Positions 5,710 through 30,119 of a DNA stretch of 44,361 nucleotides are shown here, in pieces (the first letter of the stretch is position 1; each line of letters starts with the position of its first letter). The stretch lies in NCBI RefSeq assembly GCF_000239295.1, contig NZ_JH417851.1, positions 33,752 through 78,112 of the forward strand, read 5' to 3'. This DNA comes from Flavonifractor plautii ATCC 29863. GTDB taxonomy: Bacteria; Bacillota; Clostridia; Oscillospirales; Oscillospiraceae. A model generated the notes under the pieces. That model worked only from the letters and a program-made list of their open reading frames with translations. It was not told the origin of the DNA and ran no database searches. Made by a program: the position numbers and the translations under genes.

Positions 5710-7740
5710 CTATCCCACGGTCACCACCCGCACCACGGCGTCCCCGCCCAGTGCGCCGCTGTAGTACACGGTCAGCTCCGCTCCGTAGGATTTGGCGGCC
5801 GAGAGGGTCGTCCAGCGCCCGGTTTCTTGGTTGTAAACCTCTACCCCGTCGCTGACGGGCACCCGAAGGCCTTCCACCACCACGGCCTCCTCTCCGTCAA
5901 AATCAGCCCGGCTCACATCGGCCTTCTTCAGGCTCACAACCTCCACGGCCTTTCCCTCGGACGACACCGCGATGCCACCCATGGTTCCGCTCCTGACCGT
6001 CTTTCCCGTGATATATGCCTGGCTGGCTCCGCTGCTGTTCTCCACGGAGACGGTTCGGTTGGTATAGGTCATGCTGCCGCTGCCCCCAGTCTGCTCCCCG
6101 GCGGTCAGCAGACCGTAGGTAAATGCGTTCCCGGTCACATCGTCCAGCAGGAGGAGGCAGACCTTCCCGTTTTCGTCTGTGGCGTAAAAGTCGATTTGGG
6201 AGGCGGGTACGGTATCCGTCAGAATATCCTCCAGGGCAATTTCCGCCACCACGCTGGAGCCGGCCCGCTCGTAGAGCTTCACATCCTCCGACAGTGGAAG
6301 GCTCCCCAGGGTGCCGTCCGACGGATCCAGGGCATACTGGCTCCCACCGGACACCGGATAGACCGACAGGGCCCCGATCCCGGTGGAGCTGACCCGAACC
6401 AGCTCACCCACACCGGCGCCGTGGACGCTGAGCTCACCCGCCGCAGTCAGCCCGCAGGTCAGCTCCACCCCGTCCTCCCGAAGCACGCCGTAGAGCTCCG
6501 CCCGCTTCTCCGAGGGGGCGCAGGCAGAGATCACCTCTCCCGCCCCGTTCAGGGTGACGGTAATCCGGTCGCCCACCGCGAAGGCGGACAGCCCGGCCGC
6601 CGCCCCGTCCGCCACCTCCAGCTCCACGCCCAGCAGCGTGATGGAGGCGGGCGACGCGGCGTTGGGGCTGGCATCCTCATAATAGCCGGTCAGCATGACC
6701 CCCTCATAGGCCGCCGCCTCGGAGGCCACGACCAGATCGAGCGCCCCGGAGTCCGTATAATACAGCGCCACCTGCTCCCGGCCCTCCAGCTCATACCAGC
6801 AGTCGCCGTAGGTGCTGACCGCGCCGTCCAGCAGCACCCTGGTTCCGCTGGAGATGGCATACGTTCCCCCTCCGGCGGCGGTGATGCCGTCCGCCGCCAC
6901 CTCCGCCGGGCGGAGGGTGCGATGGGACGAATCGTCCGGCAGGAAGCCCACCGCCTTTCCCGCCTCGTCCAGCAGCAGCGCGCCTTTCCGCCCCACCAGG
7001 CGGTCCGGCACCGCCTCCGCAGGCTCATACCAGCTAATCGTCTGATTGGCATAGACCTCCACCGTACCCAGGGTACCGTCCGCCGCCTCGGCGTTATTGT
7101 CCAGCAGCACCGCGCCGGTCACCTTGGAGGCGCAGAGGTTGTCGATGTAATCCTGTCCGTCCCGGTCTGTCTGCCGCAGCACGCGGTAGAGCAGCAGGGC
7201 CGCGTCTCCCCGGGTCAGGCCGGCTCCGACGTCTGCGGGCAGGCCGTCCAGAAGCCCCAGTGCCCCGGCCTTATTCAGATAGTCCTCCGGCCAGAAGGGG
7301 CCGATCTCCTCCGCCGTATAGCCCAGCAAACGGAGAACCACGGTTACCGCCTGTCCCACAGTCACCGGGTCGTCCGGGCCAAAGCGGCCATCGCCATAGC
7401 CGGAGACCAGCCCCTCCTCACAGGCCAGATTGATATAGGGGGCAGCCCAGCCGCCGCCCGGCACGTCGGAAAACCGGGTGCGGTAGGCGCTCCCCCGCGC
7501 CTGATCCCCGTGTCCCTCCGTTAGAATGGCCAGCTTGCAGAACTGGGCGCGGGTCAGCGCGTCGTCCGGGTGGTAGCTCCCGTCGGAGTACCCGGAGACA
7601 ATACCCAGGCCGGAGAGTACCTCCACCGCCTCGGACAGCTCTTCTCCGCTCACATCCGAAAAGGCCAGGGCGGGCGCCGCCGTGATCAGCCCCAGGCACA
7701 GCCCCGCCGCCAGCAGCAGCGCCAGAATACGTTGTTTCAT
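5710..7740 (-). CDS. Secreted S-layer-homology (SLH) domain protein
   Basis: This 676-residue cell-surface protein has a signal peptide (residues 1-26, MKQRILALLLAAGLCLGLIT then APALA). Two clear SLH repeats follow: FSDVSGEELSEAVEVLSGLG with GYSDGSYHPDDALTRAQF, and FSDVPGGGWAAPYINLACEE with GYGDGRFGPDDPVT. A weaker third repeat reaches about residue 190. SLH domains bind pyruvylated secondary wall polymers. The remaining ~480 residues are Gly/Ala/Val-rich, probably beta-rich, and not recognised. It begins only 18 bp after the exporter permease gene with its own GAGAGGAG site, so it is probably the fourth gene of the exporter operon. Its role is unknown; substrate handling or wall anchoring of the exporter is inference. 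Confidence 0.88.
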   Translation of the reverse strand: MKQRILALLLAAGLCLGLITAAPALAFSDVSGEELSEAVEVLSGLGIVSGYSDGSYHPDDALTRAQFCKLAILTEGHGDQARGSAYRTRFSDVPGGGWAAPYINLACEEGLVSGYGDGRFGPDDPVTVGQAVTVVLRLLGYTAEEIGPFWPEDYLNKAGALGLLDGLPADVGAGLTRGDAALLLYRVLRQTDRDGQDYIDNLCASKVTGAVLLDNNAEAADGTLGTVEVYANQTISWYEPAEAVPDRLVGRKGALLLDEAGKAVGFLPDDSSHRTLRPAEVAADGITAAGGGTYAISSGTRVLLDGAVSTYGDCWYELEGREQVALYYTDSGALDLVVASEAAAYEGVMLTGYYEDASPNAASPASITLLGVELEVADGAAAGLSAFAVGDRITVTLNGAGEVISACAPSEKRAELYGVLREDGVELTCGLTAAGELSVHGAGVGELVRVSSTGIGALSVYPVSGGSQYALDPSDGTLGSLPLSEDVKLYERAGSSVVAEIALEDILTDTVPASQIDFYATDENGKVCLLLLDDVTGNAFTYGLLTAGEQTGGSGSMTYTNRTVSVENSSGASQAYITGKTVRSGTMGGIAVSSEGKAVEVVSLKKADVSRADFDGEEAVVVEGLRVPVSDGVEVYNQETGRWTTLSAAKSYGAELTVYYSGALGGDAVVRVVTVG

Positions 7741-7758: not shown

Positions 7759-8940
7759 TTAGTCGGCGCGCAGGGCGTCCACAGGCTGCAAACCGGACGC
7801 CTTGGCCGCCGGGTAGATGCCGAACACGATTCCGATGGCGACAGAGAAGGCGAAGGCGCCCGCCGTCACCAGCGCGTCGGGATACAAGATCAGATCATAC
7901 ATGGCCTTTCCCAAAATGAGCGACAGCAGGTAGCCCAGGGCGATGCCGATGAGGCCGCCCAGAGCACTCAGGATGGCGGCCTCCACCAGGAATTGCCCCA
8001 CGATCTCCCGCCGGGGCGCGCCGATGGACTTCTTGATGCCGATTTCCCGGGTCCGCTCCGTGACGGTGACCAGCATGATGTTCATGATACCGATTCCGCC
8101 CACCAGCAGGGCGATGCCCGCGATGCCGCCCAGTACCACGCTCATGGAGGTCATCTCCTCCGTGCTCTCGCTCATGGCGGAGTTGCCGTTCTCCAGCTCA
8201 TACTCCCCCACGCTCGTGTCGATGGTCTCCCCCAGGAAACGCTCCAGCTTCGCCATCACTGTGTCCATGTGGTCGGACTGATCTACCTTGACAGAAAAGC
8301 GGGTGAGCTGGGCGGTGCCCAGTATGGCCCGATCCAGGGAGTAGGGGATCACCGCCATGTCGTCCATGGAGCCCTCCTCGCCCCCGTCCTTCTGGTAGTA
8401 GATCCCCACCACGGTGAAGGGCTCACCGCCGAAGTAGACGGTCTCCCCGATGGGATCCGCATATTGAAACAGGCTGTCCGCCACGTAGGAGCCGAGCACG
8501 CACACCCGGCTGCGCCGGTCGACGTCAAAGGCGCTGATGTCCCGCCCCTCCTTCAGGGTGTAGTTCCCGCAGACGGAGAACTGGTCGCTGCCCAGGTAGA
8601 GCGTCCCGCTGTCCAGCGTGGTGGTGCGGTATTTCATGGGCAGGCTTGTGGACAGATCGGGGCTCACCCCCAGCACCATATCGCCCAGCTCTCCATTCCC
8701 ATAGTCATAGAGGGCGTCTATCACATCCACAGACCGGCTGGTGTCGTACCAGTTCACCGTGACGTTGACCTTGTTGACGCCCAGCTTCTCATAGTAGGCG
8801 GTGATGTCCGCGTTGTAGCCGGACACCAGCGCCACCAGCACCAGCACGGCGGTCACGCCGATGATGATGCCCAGCATCGTGAGGAAGGAGCGCCCCTTTT
8901 TCTCCCGGATGGAGTCCAGGGCCATGCGCAGCGCGTTCAT
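7759..8940 (-). CDS. ABC transporter permease, MacB/FtsX type
   Basis: This 393-residue permease belongs to a MacB-like tripartite-style exporter. It starts MNALRMALDSIREKKGRSFL with a first membrane segment (MLGIIIGVTAVLVLVALVSG). A ~210-residue extracytoplasmic MacB-type domain follows, then three C-terminal membrane segments of the FtsX domain (VLGGIAGIALLVGGIGIMNI, EIGIKKSIGAPRREI, ALGGLIGIALGYLLSLILG). The ATG at 8938-8940 overlaps the ATPase stop as ATGA, so the two are translationally coupled. The longer upstream reading frame is discarded for that reason. Family members export peptides, antibiotics or siderophore-like molecules; the substrate here cannot be read from sequence. Confidence 0.93.
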   Translation of the reverse strand: MNALRMALDSIREKKGRSFLTMLGIIIGVTAVLVLVALVSGYNADITAYYEKLGVNKVNVTVNWYDTSRSVDVIDALYDYGNGELGDMVLGVSPDLSTSLPMKYRTTTLDSGTLYLGSDQFSVCGNYTLKEGRDISAFDVDRRSRVCVLGSYVADSLFQYADPIGETVYFGGEPFTVVGIYYQKDGGEEGSMDDMAVIPYSLDRAILGTAQLTRFSVKVDQSDHMDTVMAKLERFLGETIDTSVGEYELENGNSAMSESTEEMTSMSVVLGGIAGIALLVGGIGIMNIMLVTVTERTREIGIKKSIGAPRREIVGQFLVEAAILSALGGLIGIALGYLLSLILGKAMYDLILYPDALVTAGAFAFSVAIGIVFGIYPAAKASGLQPVDALRAD

Positions 8941-9668
8941 GGCGCCACCCGCGCCGGCGGGGCGCTCCAGTCCACCAGCACGCCGTCCCACAGGCTGTCG
9001 TGGACGATTCTCCCATCCTTCACCCGCACGGTACGGTCGGCCTGGGCGGCGATGCCGTTGTCGTGGGTGATCAGGATCACGGTGGTTCCCTCGGCGTTCA
9101 TCTGGCGCATGAGGCCCAGCACCTGTTCGCCGGTTCTGGAGTCCAGCGCCCCGGTGGGCTCGTCGGCCATGAGGATGGGCGAGCGGGCGGCGATGGCCCG
9201 GGCGATGGCCACCCGCTGCTGCTGGCCGCCGGAGAGCTGGGCCGGCCGGTTGTCCACCTTGGCGGCGATCTCCACCTTTTCCAGCGCCTCCATGGCCCGC
9301 GCCCGCCGCTCCGCCAGCGGGACCCGCTGGTAGAGCATGGGCAGCGCCACATTCTGCCAGACGTTCAGGGACGGGATGAGGTTATAGCCCTGGAAAATGA
9401 ACGCAATCTGCCGGGAGCGGATCTGGGACAGCTCCCTCTGGGTGCGCTCCCGGATCGGGGTGCCGTCCAGGAGATACTCCCCCCGGGTGGGCACGTCCAG
9501 GCAGCCCAGTATGTTCATCATCGTGGACTTGCCGGAGCCGGAGGTGCCGATGATGGCCACAAACTCCCCCTGGTCTATGCTCAGCGTAACCCCATCCAGC
9601 GCGTTGACCTGGTTTTCCTGCCCCTCGGCGTAAATTTTATAGACGTCCTTCAATTGAATCAGGCTCAT
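8937..9668 (-). CDS. ABC transporter ATP-binding protein, MacB/LolD type
   Basis: This 243-residue ATPase powers the exporter encoded with it. It shows Walker A GTSGSGKST, Q-loop FIFQGYNLIPSLNVWQNVAL, signature LSGGQQQRVAIARAI, Walker B ILMADEPTGALD and H-loop ILITHD, all in order. The FQxxNL Q-loop and EPTGALD Walker B are typical of the MacB/LolD (MJ0796) subfamily. About 25 extra C-terminal residues follow the usual end. The gene begins 15 bp after the adaptor stop and overlaps the permease start by 4 bp, placing it in the middle of the operon. Confidence 0.95.
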   Translation of the reverse strand: MSLIQLKDVYKIYAEGQENQVNALDGVTLSIDQGEFVAIIGTSGSGKSTMMNILGCLDVPTRGEYLLDGTPIRERTQRELSQIRSRQIAFIFQGYNLIPSLNVWQNVALPMLYQRVPLAERRARAMEALEKVEIAAKVDNRPAQLSGGQQQRVAIARAIAARSPILMADEPTGALDSRTGEQVLGLMRQMNAEGTTVILITHDNGIAAQADRTVRVKDGRIVHDSLWDGVLVDWSAPPARVAP

Positions 9669-9683
9669 ACAGAATCCCCCTTC

Positions 9684-11495
9684 TCAGCCCATAGGGCCGC
9701 CGCCGGGCATCCCGCCGCCCATGCCGCCAGGCATTCCGCCGCCGAAATCCGGCATCTCTCCGCCGCTGAAGTCCGGCATTTCCCCGCCGCCCGGGAAGTC
9801 GGACGGCTCCTCTCCCTGGCTGGTGGTATCCCCGCCGTTCGGGGCCGCCTGCTGGTAGCGGGTGAATACCTCCACCCCCTCCTCCACGCCGGAGAGGATG
9901 CGCACATACTGGCTGTTGGACACCCCGGTTTCCACCGGCACGGCATAGAACCCGTCGGGCACCACGCCGTCCTCCAGCTCCACCGCGTTGTCCGGCGCCG
10001 CGTCCGCCTTGACGAAGAGGCAGGTTCCCTGGCTGGTGCTCTTGAGGGCCGCGATGGGGGCCAGCACCCCCTCGGACTCGTCGCCCACGGTGATGGAATA
10101 GGAGACGTTGACGCCGGCGGAGAGGGCGCCCCCGCTGGGAATGGTGATGGTGATGGGGAAATAGGCCACGCCGTTGGAGTTGGTGGCCTCATAGCTGATC
10201 TCCGTGACAGTGCCGGTGTAATGGGTGTCGCTCTCCGCCCCCGACTGGGTGATGTCCACCTCCATCCCCATGGCAATGCCGTCGATGTCCAGCTCGTCAA
10301 TGTTGGCGGTGATGGTCATGGAGTCCAGGTTGTAGAGCACCACCGCGGTCTGCCCCGCCTCCCGGGGGCTCTCTCCCTCCCGGACATTGACCATGATGAT
10401 CTTCCCCGCCAGCTCAGCGGTCACCGCGTAGTCGGAGCGCTTCTCCTCCGTCTCCGCGCTCTTCTCCTGGAGCTGGACAATCTTTTCCTGGGTCTGGGTG
10501 ATCTGCTTGTTCACCGACTCCACCTGCTTCTGGTAGTCGGCCCCGTCGAGCTGGACGAGAACGGCCCCGGCGCTCACCTGCTCATAGTCCACCGCCCCGA
10601 TGCCGGTCACCTCGCCGCCCACCTCGGCGGTGAGATCCTGGCTGCGGCGGTACTCCAGCTCCCCCTCCACCGACGGATAGAGCTTTTCGCCCGAGTCCGC
10701 CACCAGATAGCCGGCGCCCGTCATTCCCTCGGTGAAGGCGCCCGGATTGTCCAGGGTGACGGTGACGGCAAAGCAGTGGGTGCCCTCCGCCGTCACCCGG
10801 TCCACCATCTGAATGTCGGTGACGGTTCCCTCCTGGTTGAGCATGAGGCTGGCCACGGACACCCCGGCCTTCATGCCCACGTAGACCTGATCCTCATAGG
10901 CGTAGCTGAAATACTGGGTCAGGCACATCTGGCTGTCGTCCACAAGGGTGGCCAGCTTGGTTCCGGCGGCCACATTGTCCCCCACGTCCACGGCCACATC
11001 GGTAATCCGGCCGGCAAAGGGGGCTGTCACAGTGAGGGCGGCGATCTCCTCTTGGAGCTGGGCGAGCTGCTCCTGATAATCGTCCAGCTGGTTTTCCTGC
11101 TCGGTAATCTGATCCTGGTACTCCTCAATCTGGTCGTCCAGCTCTGAATCATCCTGGGTGTAGAGCAGCTCGCCCACCTCCACCGTGTCGCCGGCGGAGA
11201 CGTATACGCCGGTGATCTCCGTCTCCGAGGCGGTGGTGTACGTAACGCTGTCCGCCGGCATGGTGGTTCCGGTGCCGGAGAGCGTTGTGGACAGGCTGCC
11301 ATAGGTGGTCTGCTCCGTCAGGGGCGTCTGCTCCTCCCCGCTGAAAAACAGGGCCTTCCCCCCGAGGGCGGCACCGGCCGCCAGGGCCAGAACCAGCAGC
11401 AGCGCCGCCCCGCGCCTGACCGTCAGCCGCCGGCCGGGCTTCCGCTCGGGCGGCGCGCTCCCCTCCGCTTTCTTCCGCAATGCCGTCAACTGCAT
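9684..11495 (-). CDS. MacA/HlyD-like efflux adaptor with Gly-Met-Pro-rich tail
   Basis: This 603-residue membrane-anchored adaptor belongs to the RND/ABC periplasmic-adaptor (HlyD/MacA/YknX) family and is expected to link the ABC permease to substrate capture outside the cell. A basic N-terminus precedes one membrane anchor (about residues 29-50). Two coiled-coil stretches, around DQIEEYQDQITEQENQLDDY and KQVESVNKQITQTQEKIVQL, sit between lipoyl/barrel halves (LTVTAPFAGRITDVAVDVGD). The last ~50 residues switch to repeats such as EMPDFSGGEMPDFGGGMPGG with many Met and Gly. An upstream ATG would add 45 residues; 11493-11495 fits the ribosome-binding site GGTGAGGA and the operator positions. 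It is the first gene of the exporter operon. Confidence 0.9.
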   Translation of the reverse strand: MQLTALRKKAEGSAPPERKPGRRLTVRRGAALLLVLALAAGAALGGKALFFSGEEQTPLTEQTTYGSLSTTLSGTGTTMPADSVTYTTASETEITGVYVSAGDTVEVGELLYTQDDSELDDQIEEYQDQITEQENQLDDYQEQLAQLQEEIAALTVTAPFAGRITDVAVDVGDNVAAGTKLATLVDDSQMCLTQYFSYAYEDQVYVGMKAGVSVASLMLNQEGTVTDIQMVDRVTAEGTHCFAVTVTLDNPGAFTEGMTGAGYLVADSGEKLYPSVEGELEYRRSQDLTAEVGGEVTGIGAVDYEQVSAGAVLVQLDGADYQKQVESVNKQITQTQEKIVQLQEKSAETEEKRSDYAVTAELAGKIIMVNVREGESPREAGQTAVVLYNLDSMTITANIDELDIDGIAMGMEVDITQSGAESDTHYTGTVTEISYEATNSNGVAYFPITITIPSGGALSAGVNVSYSITVGDESEGVLAPIAALKSTSQGTCLFVKADAAPDNAVELEDGVVPDGFYAVPVETGVSNSQYVRILSGVEEGVEVFTRYQQAAPNGGDTTSQGEEPSDFPGGGEMPDFSGGEMPDFGGGMPGGMGGGMPGGGPMG

Positions 11496-11532: not shown

Positions 11533-11565
11533 AGTATAGGGGGAGAAACTGAAATTACTCTGAAA
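11533..11565 (-). promoter_or_regulatory. Adaptor operon promoter with paired TTTCAG boxes
   Basis: Read leftward, two TTTCAG boxes (11560-11565 and 11549-11554) start 11 bp apart, then 10 bp, then -10 TATACT (11533-11538). The boxes replace the -35 element. Direct repeats one helical turn apart at this place are typical of OmpR/PhoB-type activators; the divergently encoded response regulator is the obvious candidate. Confidence 0.75.
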
Positions 11566-11629
11566 AAGGGCCGCGGGAGATTGTTAACACTCTGTAAATC
11601 CTTTCGTCTGCCGCCCCGCCTATAATACA

Positions 11630-11662
11630 TTTCAGACAGATTTCAGTTCTCTCCCTTATAAT
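11630..11662 (+). promoter_or_regulatory. Response-regulator promoter with paired TTTCAG boxes
   Basis: TTTCAG boxes at 11630-11635 and 11641-11646 (11-bp period) are followed after 10 bp by -10 TATAAT (11657-11662). The geometry is identical to the divergent adaptor promoter, predicting joint activation and autoregulation. A second TATAAT at 11621-11626 has no convincing -35. Confidence 0.75.
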
Positions 11663-11691: not shown

Positions 11692-12369
11692 ATGCGCATC
11701 TTGATTGTAGAGGACGAGCGCCGCCTGGCTGAGGCGCTGGGCCAGATCATGGCGGAGCAGCGCTATCAGGCCGACGTGGTGTTTGACGGGGCGGACGGGC
11801 TGGACTACGCCCTCACCGGGCAGTACGACGCCATCGTGCTCGATGTGATGCTTCCCAAGGTGGACGGCTTTGAGGTGGCCCGCCGCCTGCGCTGCGCCCA
11901 CGTCTCCACCCCCATTCTGATGCTCACCGCCCGGGATGAGATCCCGGACAAGATCGCGGGGCTGGATCACGGCGCGGACGACTATATGACCAAGCCCTTC
12001 GACATCGGGGAGCTGCTGGCCCGGGTGCGGGCGCTCACCCGGCGGCAGGGCGAGGTGATCGGCGAGCAGCTCGCCGCCGGGGATCTGGTGCTGGACACCC
12101 CCACCCGCAGCCTGCGCTGCGGGGAAAAATCCGTCCGGCTGGGCTTCAAGGAGTTTGACGTGCTCCGCCTGCTGCTGGCCGCCCCCCGGGCCGTCATTCC
12201 CAAGGAGGACATCATCTCCAAGGTATGGGGCCTGGAGTCGGAGGCGGAGGACAACAACGTGGAGGTCTACATCTCCTTCCTGCGGAAAAAGCTGGCCTAT
12301 CTGGGTTCCCGGGTGAGCATCGGCACCGTGCGCAAGGTGGGCTATCACCTGGAGGTGCCTGCGGTATGA
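11692..12369 (+). CDS. OmpR/PhoB-family response regulator
   Basis: This 225-residue two-component regulator has an N-terminal receiver domain with acidic pocket VEDE, phospho-acceptor Asp51 in IVLDVMLPKVDGF, switch Thr in MLTARDE and Lys in MTKPF. The C-terminal winged-helix DNA-binding domain reads LGFKEFDVLRLLLAAPRAVI, then NNVEVYISFLRKKL and GTVRKVGYHL. Its stop overlaps the kinase start as ATGA. The paired TTTCAG repeats in front of this gene and the adaptor gene are its likely binding sites, making the exporter operon its main target. It resembles regulators of envelope-stress or antimicrobial-peptide exporters, but the signal is not evident. Confidence 0.95.
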   Translation: MRILIVEDERRLAEALGQIMAEQRYQADVVFDGADGLDYALTGQYDAIVLDVMLPKVDGFEVARRLRCAHVSTPILMLTARDEIPDKIAGLDHGADDYMTKPFDIGELLARVRALTRRQGEVIGEQLAAGDLVLDTPTRSLRCGEKSVRLGFKEFDVLRLLLAAPRAVIPKEDIISKVWGLESEAEDNNVEVYISFLRKKLAYLGSRVSIGTVRKVGYHLEVPAV

Positions 12370-13622
12370 TCAAGCGGCTGCGGCGGAAATTCATCCTGAT
12401 CAACCTGCTGCTGGTGGGCCTGGTGCTGGCGGTGGTGTTCATCCTCTTTGTGGGGGCGAACGTCCGTCGCCTGGCGGGGCAGAGCGATGCCGCCCTCCGG
12501 CTGGCCCTGTCCTGGCAGGAGGGGGAGGGGCCGCCCCGCTTTGAAATCGGCGGCCCGCCGCCGGAGGAGCGCGAGCCGGACGGGGCGCACCGCTTCTCCC
12601 TGATCCCGGTCTTTGTGGTCACCGTGAAGGACGGGGCCATTACCGGCCTCAACGACGGCGGCCAGGTGGACGTTTCGGAGGAGACCGCCGCCGAGGCGGT
12701 GAAGCAGGCCCAGTCCTCCGGCGCCAGTCAGGGCGTGCTCAGGGAGCTTCGCCTGCGCTTTCTGGTGGAGCGCAGGCCCGACGGCGAGCTCCGCATCGCC
12801 TTTGCCGATCTGGGCTGGGAGACTGCCTCCCTGCGCAATTTGTCCCTGCTGTCCCTGCTGGTGTGGGCTCTGGCCATGGTGGGTCTCTTTTTCGTGAGCC
12901 TTGTCCTCTCCTCCGTGGCCCTGCGCCCGGCGGAACGGGCGTGGCAGCAGCAGCGCCAGTTTGTGGCCGACGCCTCCCACGAGCTGAAAACCCCCCTCAC
13001 CGTCATTCTGGCCAATACCGGCCTCGTCCTCTCCCATCCCGAAGACACGGTGGCCGCCCAGTCCAAATGGCTGGAGTACACCCACGACGAGGCGGAGCAG
13101 ATGAAGGAGCTGGTGGACGATCTGCTCTTTCTGGCCAAGTCGGATGCCGCCCGCCAGCCGGCCGCCCGGGCGGAGACGGCCATGAGCGAGGTGGCGCTGG
13201 GCTGTCTGCTCCCCTTCGAGTCGGTGGCCTTTGAGGCGGGCGTGGCGCTGGAGCACCGGATCACCCCCGGCCTGTCCCTGCGCGGAGACGAGGGGCAACT
13301 CCGCCGGCTGGTGATGATCCTCCTGGACAACGCCGTGAAGTACGCCGGGCCGGGCGGCACCGTCACCCTCACCCTGGAGCGGCACCAGGAGCGGCTGCGG
13401 CTGGCGGTACACAACACCGGCGAGCCCATCCCGCCGGAGCACCTGCCCCACCTCTTCGAGCGTTTCTACCGGGCGGACGCCGCCCGGAACCGGAGCGGGG
13501 GCGGCTACGGCCTGGGGCTGGCCATTGCCAGGAGCATCGTGGAGGGCCACCACGGGCGGCTCACCGTCACCAGCACCGCCGCGGCCGGCACCACCTTCAC
13601 CGCCCTGCTCCCCCGCCGGTGA
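12366..13622 (+). CDS. Sensor histidine kinase
   Basis: This 418-residue membrane kinase is the partner of the preceding regulator. The first membrane segment spans about residues 9-31, a sensor region of ~125 residues follows, and the second segment spans about 158-181 (LSLLSLLVWALAMVGLFFVS). HisKA has the phospho-acceptor His near residue 205 (VADASHELKTPLTVI). The catalytic domain shows the N box (MILLDNAVKYAG), F box (LFERFYRADAARNRSGGG) and G2 box (YGLGLAIARSIVEGHHG). There is no separate HAMP domain evident; the second membrane helix runs almost directly into HisKA. The ATG at 12366 overlaps the regulator stop. Confidence 0.95.
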   Translation: MIKRLRRKFILINLLLVGLVLAVVFILFVGANVRRLAGQSDAALRLALSWQEGEGPPRFEIGGPPPEEREPDGAHRFSLIPVFVVTVKDGAITGLNDGGQVDVSEETAAEAVKQAQSSGASQGVLRELRLRFLVERRPDGELRIAFADLGWETASLRNLSLLSLLVWALAMVGLFFVSLVLSSVALRPAERAWQQQRQFVADASHELKTPLTVILANTGLVLSHPEDTVAAQSKWLEYTHDEAEQMKELVDDLLFLAKSDAARQPAARAETAMSEVALGCLLPFESVAFEAGVALEHRITPGLSLRGDEGQLRRLVMILLDNAVKYAGPGGTVTLTLERHQERLRLAVHNTGEPIPPEHLPHLFERFYRADAARNRSGGGYGLGLAIARSIVEGHHGRLTVTSTAAAGTTFTALLPRR

Positions 13623-29425: not shown

Positions 29426-30034
29426 CTATTTCATATTGCATAGTATCTGCTCAAACAGTTGTTTCGCCCTGGCCTGGAAGGCCTCCGGCGTGTCATCCGC
29501 CCGGTTTTCCAGGAGATAATCGCAGTGGGTGCGGAAAAAGCCGTCCCCCTGCTGGGCCTCCACCCGCTTCCGGGCGTAGTCCTCCGAAATCCCCTCCCGA
29601 GCCATGATCCGCCGGATGCGCAGTTCCCTGGGGGCCAGTATGCCCACTATCGCGCCACAGGTCTCCCCCAGGCCGCTCTCAATGAGGGCGATGGCGTCGA
29701 TGGCCACGGCGCTCCGCCCCTGCTCCTCCGCCCCGGCGGCCTGCCGGTCGATCTCGGCCAGGATGAAGCGGTGGGTGATGGCGTTCAGCTCGGCCAGGGC
29801 CGCCGGATCGCCGAATACCACCCCGCCCAGGGCCTTGCGGTTGACACGGCCCTCCCCGTCCAGAATGGAAGGGCCAAACCGGGCGGTCAGCTCCGCCCGC
29901 AGGGTGGCGCTGGACTCCAGCAGGGCGTGGTACACCGCATCCGCGTCGATGATATGGGCGTCCAGCTCCGCCAGGGCCTGGAGCGCGGTGGTCTTCCCCG
30001 CCCCGGTGGGGCCGGTGATGCCGATGCGTTTCAT
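29426..30034 (-). CDS. coaE: Dephospho-CoA kinase
   Basis: CoaE performs the last step of coenzyme A synthesis, phosphorylating the ribose 3'-hydroxyl of dephospho-CoA with ATP. The 202-residue protein starts MKRIGITGPTGAGKTTALQA with the P-loop. AHIIDADAVYHALLE carries the DAD substrate motif, and the CoA-domain lid is around RELRIRRIMAREGISEDYAR. The start and length fit the family. It lies between sua5 and the M18 gene in the same orientation. Confidence 0.94.
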   Translation of the reverse strand: MKRIGITGPTGAGKTTALQALAELDAHIIDADAVYHALLESSATLRAELTARFGPSILDGEGRVNRKALGGVVFGDPAALAELNAITHRFILAEIDRQAAGAEEQGRSAVAIDAIALIESGLGETCGAIVGILAPRELRIRRIMAREGISEDYARKRVEAQQGDGFFRTHCDYLLENRADDTPEAFQARAKQLFEQILCNMK

Positions 30035-30119
30035 GGATGGCTTCGCCTCCGTGGTTCAGTATAGCATATCTCGTTCCGGGTTTGTTATGTATTTGTAAAT
30101 TTCCACCGCAGGAGAGGCT

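Follow-up and report, generated by a model that had tools for sequence, protein, structure and literature searches.

The window analyzed here, a 44,361-nucleotide stretch of Flavonifractor plautii ATCC 29863 (NCBI RefSeq assembly GCF_000239295.1, contig NZ_JH417851.1) in whose own numbering all positions are given, contains a two-component system transcribed rightward and, diverging from it, an exporter operon transcribed leftward. Two pairs of TTTCAG direct repeats lie between the two operons, one facing each. Comparison across genomes indicates that these pairs are very likely CiaR-type operators of the encoded response regulator, one for each of the divergent operons. This confidence applies to the operator assignment, and not to the promoter hand-over that we propose below.

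On the minus strand, the left operator pair (11549–11565), identified from the sequence, the genus scan and a 12-genome comparison, comprises TTTCAG at 11565–11560 and TTTCAG at 11554–11549, with the spacer AGTAA between them. Ten bp further on lies TATACT (11538–11533), the −10 of the exporter promoter, which reads TATACT in 9/9 compared genomes with the left pair. The right pair (11630–11646, plus strand), to which the comparison of relatives also contributes, comprises TTTCAG at 11630–11635 and TTTCAG at 11641–11646 around the spacer ACAGA. It is followed, again after 10 bp, by TATAAT (11657–11662), the −10 of P2, which we presume to be the regulator-activated promoter of the two-component operon; TATNNT stands at this place in 12/12 compared genomes. 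The two strands share the pattern TTTCAG-N5-TTTCAG-N10-TATAMT. An earlier note on this DNA had reported half-sites starting exactly 11 bp apart on both sides, then a 10-bp gap and a −10, and the sequence confirms each of these distances. Its account of the promoters is correct for the boxes and the outer −10s, and mentions neither a central element nor a second promoter. The two sides are mirror images, as it had proposed, only for each box with its −10: the remainder holds an 18-bp element (11581–11598) and, on the right side only, an extra −10 (11621–11626). The final G of the half-site is present in all four half-sites of the window and in the right pairs of 12/12 compared genomes; the search pattern required this G, and the pair lies at the expected place in each. 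Inspection of the 12 compared sequences by eye revealed no third TTTCAG-like half-site ahead of box 1.

The exact repeat TTTCAG-N5-TTTCAG occurs five times in the Flavonifractor plautii genome itself (3.82 Mb in 242 contigs), while the reversed control does not occur. Four of the five copies have TANNNT 10 bp downstream, two of them in the window and two at a paralogous two-component system (contig C184); the fifth, on contig C187, has no TANNNT at 10 bp. A scan of the whole genome, which the earlier note had suggested, was run across a genus sample of 20 genomes, nine of them at least 90% complete. The pattern with TANNNT gave 26 matches in 12 of the 20 genomes, and the reversed pattern none. 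Every one of the 26 lies at a two-component locus: 16 are found at orthologs of the window system (type A), and six loci of a single paralogous system (type B), whose regulator is ~50% identical to type A, account for the other 10. Four of the six type-B loci carry one box before the two-component system and another before an ABC-transporter gene, while in G005 and G019 the exact match is found only at the ABC-gene box. For the type-B locus of G010 no regulator was listed and no ABC gene called, and its assignment relies on position and on a histidine kinase that is 43% identical. Eight genus genomes have no match; seven of these have no regulator more than 53% identical, and the eighth, G009, has a type-A regulator and a box with one mismatch. 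Judged by exact boxes, the predicted regulon in the genome of the window is local, comprising the window locus and the paralogous system with the same box. A global role of the regulator finds no support there, as a relaxed scan (one mismatch, TTTMAG) adds only two sites, both inside long open frames.

Three of these loci deserve separate mention. On contig C184 of the window's own genome, the TTTCAG pairs of the paralogous system lie at 6472–6488 and 9093–9109 of the fetched locus (L080), before the regulator gene and the ABC-transporter gene. In G010, all that was found of the type-A regulator gene is a fragment (C28, 9488–9817) interrupted by an in-frame stop, and the type-B regulator (L083, contig C78) was not found. 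Pseudogenes or assembly gaps may account for both cases; the two promoter boxes are intact.

The box also accompanies the regulator well outside the genus. We took the best 80 of 569 regulator matches in named genomes (genus Flavonifractor and beyond) and counted the 79 loci whose upstream sequence extends for 140 nt or more, excluding L195 for its short upstream region. A box was scored as TTTMAG-N5-TTTMAG with at most one mismatch and TANNNT at 9–11 bp, on the regulator strand. It precedes the regulator's own gene in 64 of the 79 relatives, against a shuffled sum of ~0.04 and 0/79 for the reversed word, which answers the earlier note's call for a check of conservation. The rate varies with regulator identity: 24/26 at 76% or more, 14/16 at 66–75% and 26/37 below that (shuffled means 0.01, 0.00 and 0.03, respectively). 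Across the 80 whole loci we counted 95 boxes, of which 66 stand before the regulator, nine before the exporter adaptor gene, two before ABC genes and 18 before other genes or no gene. A private, one-off repeat is thereby ruled out, as the box follows the regulator across Clostridia.

The half-site itself drifts in this set, from TTTCAG to TTTAAG in more distant Clostridia, with a nearly unchanged recognition helix. At base 4, C predominates in Flavonifractor and its sister genera, and A in many Clostridia that are more distant. A change of helix as the cause was ruled out, since NNVEVY[IV]SF[LIV]R[KR]K is present in 78 of the 80 relatives; the helix is unreadable in L149 and L171, and the retrieval patterns included EDNNVEVY, so that the conservation of the helix is partly built in. 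Because nearly the same recognition helix pairs with C or A, base 4 of the predicted half-site is degenerate in this clade.

In some relatives the box is also found near genes with a possible connection to polyphosphate. It precedes a gene with a VTC domain (polyphosphate polymerase family) in L175, by Pfam, and VTC-like genes, judged from similar N-termini only, in L176, L179, L200, L202 and L209. At L175, L200 and L209, the box of the VTC-type gene and that of the regulator itself stand back to back. In L202 and L209 the box also precedes Cthe_2159 proteins (Pfam). A link between this family of two-component systems and polyphosphate is possible.

The genomes that lack the exporter separate the two pairs. 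The left pair is present in 9 of the 12 compared genomes and absent in G007, G009 and G015, all three of which retain the right pair (with one mismatch in G009). In these three, the leftward gene encodes an SPFH/Band_7-like protein (Pfam on the G015 copy, L131), and the best adaptor matches are only 34%, 31% and 34% identical, respectively. The adaptors beside the two-component system in the other compared genomes are 62–75% identical in eight of nine, the ninth being the window itself. G015 is 89% complete, and genome-wide absence of the exporter is less sure there than absence from the locus. Absence of the exporter coincides with absence of the left pair only; therefore, as far as the sequences tell, each operator pair goes with its own operon. 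The earlier note had named loss of the repeats in close relatives that keep the locus as an outcome at odds with its proposal. No such loss was seen, the exporter-less genomes being without the left pair only. At L131, L132 and L137 the exporter operon is missing and the SPFH/Band_7-like gene directly adjoins the conserved central element. L095 has a closely similar promoter on the far side of its exporter, which makes it likely that the exporter was cleanly lost or gained.

The right side of the region contains a putative second promoter. The −10 of this P1 (TATAAT, 11621–11626, plus strand), assigned by the 12-genome comparison, would belong to an upstream promoter of the two-component operon. 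TANNNT lies 22 bp after the central element in 11/12 genomes (21 bp in G007) and 2–3 bp before box 1 in 12/12. In the 50 nt that precede box 1 we found a strong −10 at 8/9 element-bearing loci (shuffle mean 1.7), a count in which the window, G003 and G010 are not included, and at 16/29 loci of sister taxa (shuffle mean 2.0). The sister taxa are represented by loci L138–L172, from which L145, L150, L160 and L164 were dropped for want of a usable box and L169 was skipped. At 11 of these 29 sister loci, TTG-N16..18-TANNNT occurs among the 80 nt that lead up to box 1 (shuffle mean 1.3, maximum 4). We infer that P1 is a starter promoter, that the central element took over the role of its −35 in Flavonifractor, and that transcription from P1 starts within the first half-site of the right pair.

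The central element, TTGTTAACACTCTGTAAA (11581–11598), can be read in two directions: leftward as TTTACA-N5-TTAACA, which is Pho-like, and rightward as TGTTAA-N5-TGTAAA, which fits the WalR consensus. Of the 12 genus genomes that have a type-A regulator, 11 carry it exactly; the exception is G005, whose regulator is 73% identical. A search with the element itself also found it in G038, of another genus. A frequent genomic word was ruled out, as the genome of the window holds a single exact copy and 5 of 300 family genomes carry it, all at this kind of locus. Among 12 sequences chosen for having the element, ungapped identity around it falls to 41% over 20 nt on the left and 57% over 22 nt on the right. 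In nearly all 12 element-bearing genomes conservation extends rightward (window 11599–11607) as N-CCTTTTTT, with the window departing from the T run.

For comparison, we built a Pho-box matrix from 18 pstS promoters of the genus (8 distinct sites, scores 27.0–32.2), on which the element scores 17.7 bits. Scores of at least 17.7 occur at 15 of 979,104 positions in 30 genus loci, chosen around regulators and pst genes and thus not genome-wide; four are pstS training sites, 11 are copies of the element, and the next score is at most 15.4. Like the pstS Pho boxes, the element is an 11-bp direct repeat and matches the matrix, with a distance to the −10 that is larger by one 11-bp step: read leftward, its TTTACA stands 60 bp from the −10 (59 in G038), against 49 bp in pstS by an eye count, 11 bp more. 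It differs from them in its TTAACA second half, its lower score and its position between two divergent promoters. Its leftward TTTACA and the left box are 33 bp apart in 8/9 genomes (32 in G038). The element is probably bound by another regulator of the OmpR family, most likely one of Pho type. Candidate binders include a PhoB-like protein encoded in the pst operon (216 bits, under the cut-off of 296) and a YycF-like regulator (261 bits, under the cut-off of 340). A weaker Pho-like site (14.7) lies elsewhere in the window, at 30100–30082 on the minus strand, upstream of a dephospho-CoA-kinase-like gene (29426–30034, minus strand; judged by eye).

From these features we propose the following mechanism. 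At each operator pair, which occupies the place of a −35, the encoded regulator would bind as a head-to-tail dimer and recruit RNA polymerase to the −10 ten bp downstream. The left pair would drive the exporter operon, and the right pair would drive P2 of the regulator–kinase operon, giving positive autoregulation. The earlier note predicted direct action of the encoded OmpR-type regulator on both operons, and this prediction gains comparative support from the box in 64 of 79 relatives, from the 9 of 95 boxes at adaptor genes and from the pattern of exporter absence. A second OmpR-family regulator, at the central element, would feed the starter promoter P1. Because P1 sits just upstream of the right pair, the encoded regulator bound there would cover the P1 start site and hand transcription over to P2. 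An operator just past a −10 can work, since CarR of Fusobacterium is reported to lower radD from a 17-bp site between the −10 and the start (PMC12186487). Combined, these steps could form a two-regulator relay, which we consider possible but less likely than not. In it, a Pho-type (or WalR-type) regulator at the element would open P1, and the phosphorylated CiaR-type regulator would then switch to P2 and the exporter promoter. In such a relay the two-component system would be supplied only under a second signal, and two kinds of dimer could stack in register at the exporter promoter (33 bp, or three 11-bp periods, in 8/9 genomes).

Several observations weigh against the operator assignment or against the relay. 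Fifteen of the 79 relatives have no box by our definition. Three genomes of the genus keep the two-component system and the right box without an adjacent exporter, which leaves autoregulation in these three with no evident output. Single-mismatch matches are partly noise, because allowing one mismatch and TTTMAG in the nine complete genomes yields 30 matches against seven for the reversed pattern. The element's score of 17.7 is far below the training range, whose weakest site scores 27.0. Read as a Pho site the element points toward the exporter, yet it is retained in the three exporter-less genomes, and relative to P1 its Pho orientation is reversed. A TTG-type −35 at P1 was found at 0/9 element-bearing loci, a result that is not significant alone (shuffle mean 1.3). 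Lastly, the loose word TGTWAA-N5-TGTWAA shows no clear enrichment in nine genomes (29 against 20 reversed), and the choice between Pho and WalR on genome-wide counts failed. Of the 29 matches, five are at this promoter, six at ppx, three at pstS (by position) and one at a Na/Pi cotransporter gene; the remaining 14 lie in coding, mobile, ribosome-site or unclear places.

The alternative that survives best concerns the element, which might be a WalR-type site, or one for some other factor, acting rightward on P1; we give this an appreciable share of the probability, though not the larger one. The element's TGTTAA-N5-TGTAAA fits the short WalR consensus TGTWAH-N5-TGTWAH, the genome encodes the YycF-like regulator, and the element persists where the leftward exporter is absent. 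Against this, the matrix built from pstS promoters alone picks out the element, and the same word stands before the Na/Pi cotransporter gene and, as TGTAAA-N5-TGTAAA, before a Ppx/GppA-like gene in 6/9 genus genomes (L222, L217, L218, L232, L233 and L234; Pfam on one). Those ppx sites are probably part of the phosphate regulon of the genus. Most of the six are followed by a promoter resembling TTGATA-N17-TAAACT.

The boxes themselves might instead belong to the type-B paralog, or be common to both regulators, and so mark a point of cross-talk rather than private operators. In the window's genome, the type-B system carries identical half-sites ahead of its regulator gene and ahead of an ABC gene, and the recognition helices are close (NHVEVYVCFLRKKL for type B, NNVEVYISFLRKKL for the window regulator). 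However, G001, G004, G007, G012, G013 and G015 have type-A boxes and the scan found no type-B box in them, so type A appears to use the boxes by itself, and we regard cross-talk as possible but doubtful. It is less probable still, and in our judgment unlikely, that the boxes are operators of this regulator that repress, or that act oppositely on the two operons. In S. suis, repression of satAB by CiaR is reported to act through a degenerate box that overlaps the −10 (PMC9241815), the CarR site described above provides a second precedent, and repression of P1 is likely because the right pair directly follows the P1 −10. At both P2 and the exporter promoter, on the other hand, the pair stands in for the −35 and leaves 10 bp to the −10, which is the geometry from which CiaR-activated promoters were predicted (PMC3091779). 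Chance repetition in AT-rich promoter DNA has a negligible probability: with up to two mismatches, 8 of 100 window shuffles match as often as the window does, but the exact pattern in the genus (26 matches, 0 reversed) and the conserved box among relatives (64/79, ~0 when shuffled) rule it out and bear out the earlier view that the geometry is unlikely by chance.

We return to the preferred assignment, two CiaR-type operators of the encoded regulator, and to the genes that they would serve. The regulator (11692–12369, plus strand) belongs to the OmpR/PhoB family, with Pfam Response_reg and Trans_reg_C domains and a recognition helix read from the translation, and is followed by a sensor histidine kinase (12366–13622, plus strand; HisKA and HATPase_c). 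Leftward on the minus strand, the exporter operon begins with an HlyD/MacA-like adaptor (9684–11495; HlyD_3 and HlyD_D23), followed by a MacB-type ABC ATPase (8937–9668; ABC_tran, with MacB as the top NCBIfam model, below its cut-off) and a MacB/FtsX-type permease (7759–8991; MacB_PCD and FtsX), whose true start is probably a later ATG. These Pfam matches agree with the identities that the earlier note had read from the sequence, an OmpR-type regulator and kinase on the right and an exporter on the left. After the exporter comes a protein with S-layer-homology domains (5710–7740, minus strand; SLH). It has a 60–63% identical counterpart beside the exporter in five fetched relatives (L091, L094, L096, L097 and L098).

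The boxes constitute an ordinary but well-founded case of a known operator kind, and the Pho-like element with the putative hand-over is the part most worth experiment. The comparison yields a testable operator and a small predicted regulon for a two-component family widespread in gut Clostridia, linked to the CiaR paradigm, and documents half-site drift between TTTCAG and TTTAAG with a nearly constant recognition helix. The conserved element suggests that a further signal, perhaps phosphate, feeds into the exporter and S-layer-type locus. If the relay were true, an envelope exporter of gut Clostridia would be coupled to phosphate status, which would fit the occurrence of the same operator type before VTC-domain genes in other Clostridia.

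Among published systems, the closest precedent is streptococcal CiaR, which binds TTTAAG-N5-TTTAAG and for whose dependent RNAs exactly ten bp to TATAAT are predicted (PMC3091779). The earlier note was right that OmpR/PhoB regulators bind direct repeats of 11-bp period, and omitted this precedent. We found no paper on this box or locus, judging by titles and term counts in a literature whose subscription papers were mostly outside reach, and no CiaR model appears among the NCBIfam matches listed (25 of 90). We file the boxes as CiaR-type on the grounds of identical spacing, a half-site that departs by one base, a similar helix and a Bacillus homolog; this classifies the predicted operator, and leaves orthology between the regulator and CiaR aside. 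The N5 and N10 spacings are the same in the Streptococcus box as described there and in the window, and the half-sites differ by one base (TTTAAG and TTTCAG). The two systems also share an OmpR-family regulator, the final G of the half-site, feedback on the own operon and the helix core VEVY.S..RKKL. Nine of 13 residues of the recognition helix are common to published CiaR (VVEVYVSKVRKKL; PMC3091779) and the window regulator (NVEVYISFLRKKL), CiaR being compared by this helix alone. The window differs from CiaRH in that only the window is described with an adjacent MacB-type exporter as a target. Clostridioides difficile RR_1586, of the OmpR family, binds TTAAG direct repeats of 11-bp period and differs in its DRTTAAG half-site and in a wider, sporulation-linked predicted regulon (PMC6222199). 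The Bacillus CiaR homolog BAS0540 comes nearest in its targets. Gel shifts show it on two promoters, its own and the one of an efflux adaptor gene, with phosphorylation improving the binding, and like the window regulator it has the box (here TTTAAG-N5-TTTAAG) before both genes, while the accessible passages describe neither a divergent adjacent exporter nor a central Pho-like element (PMC4938410).
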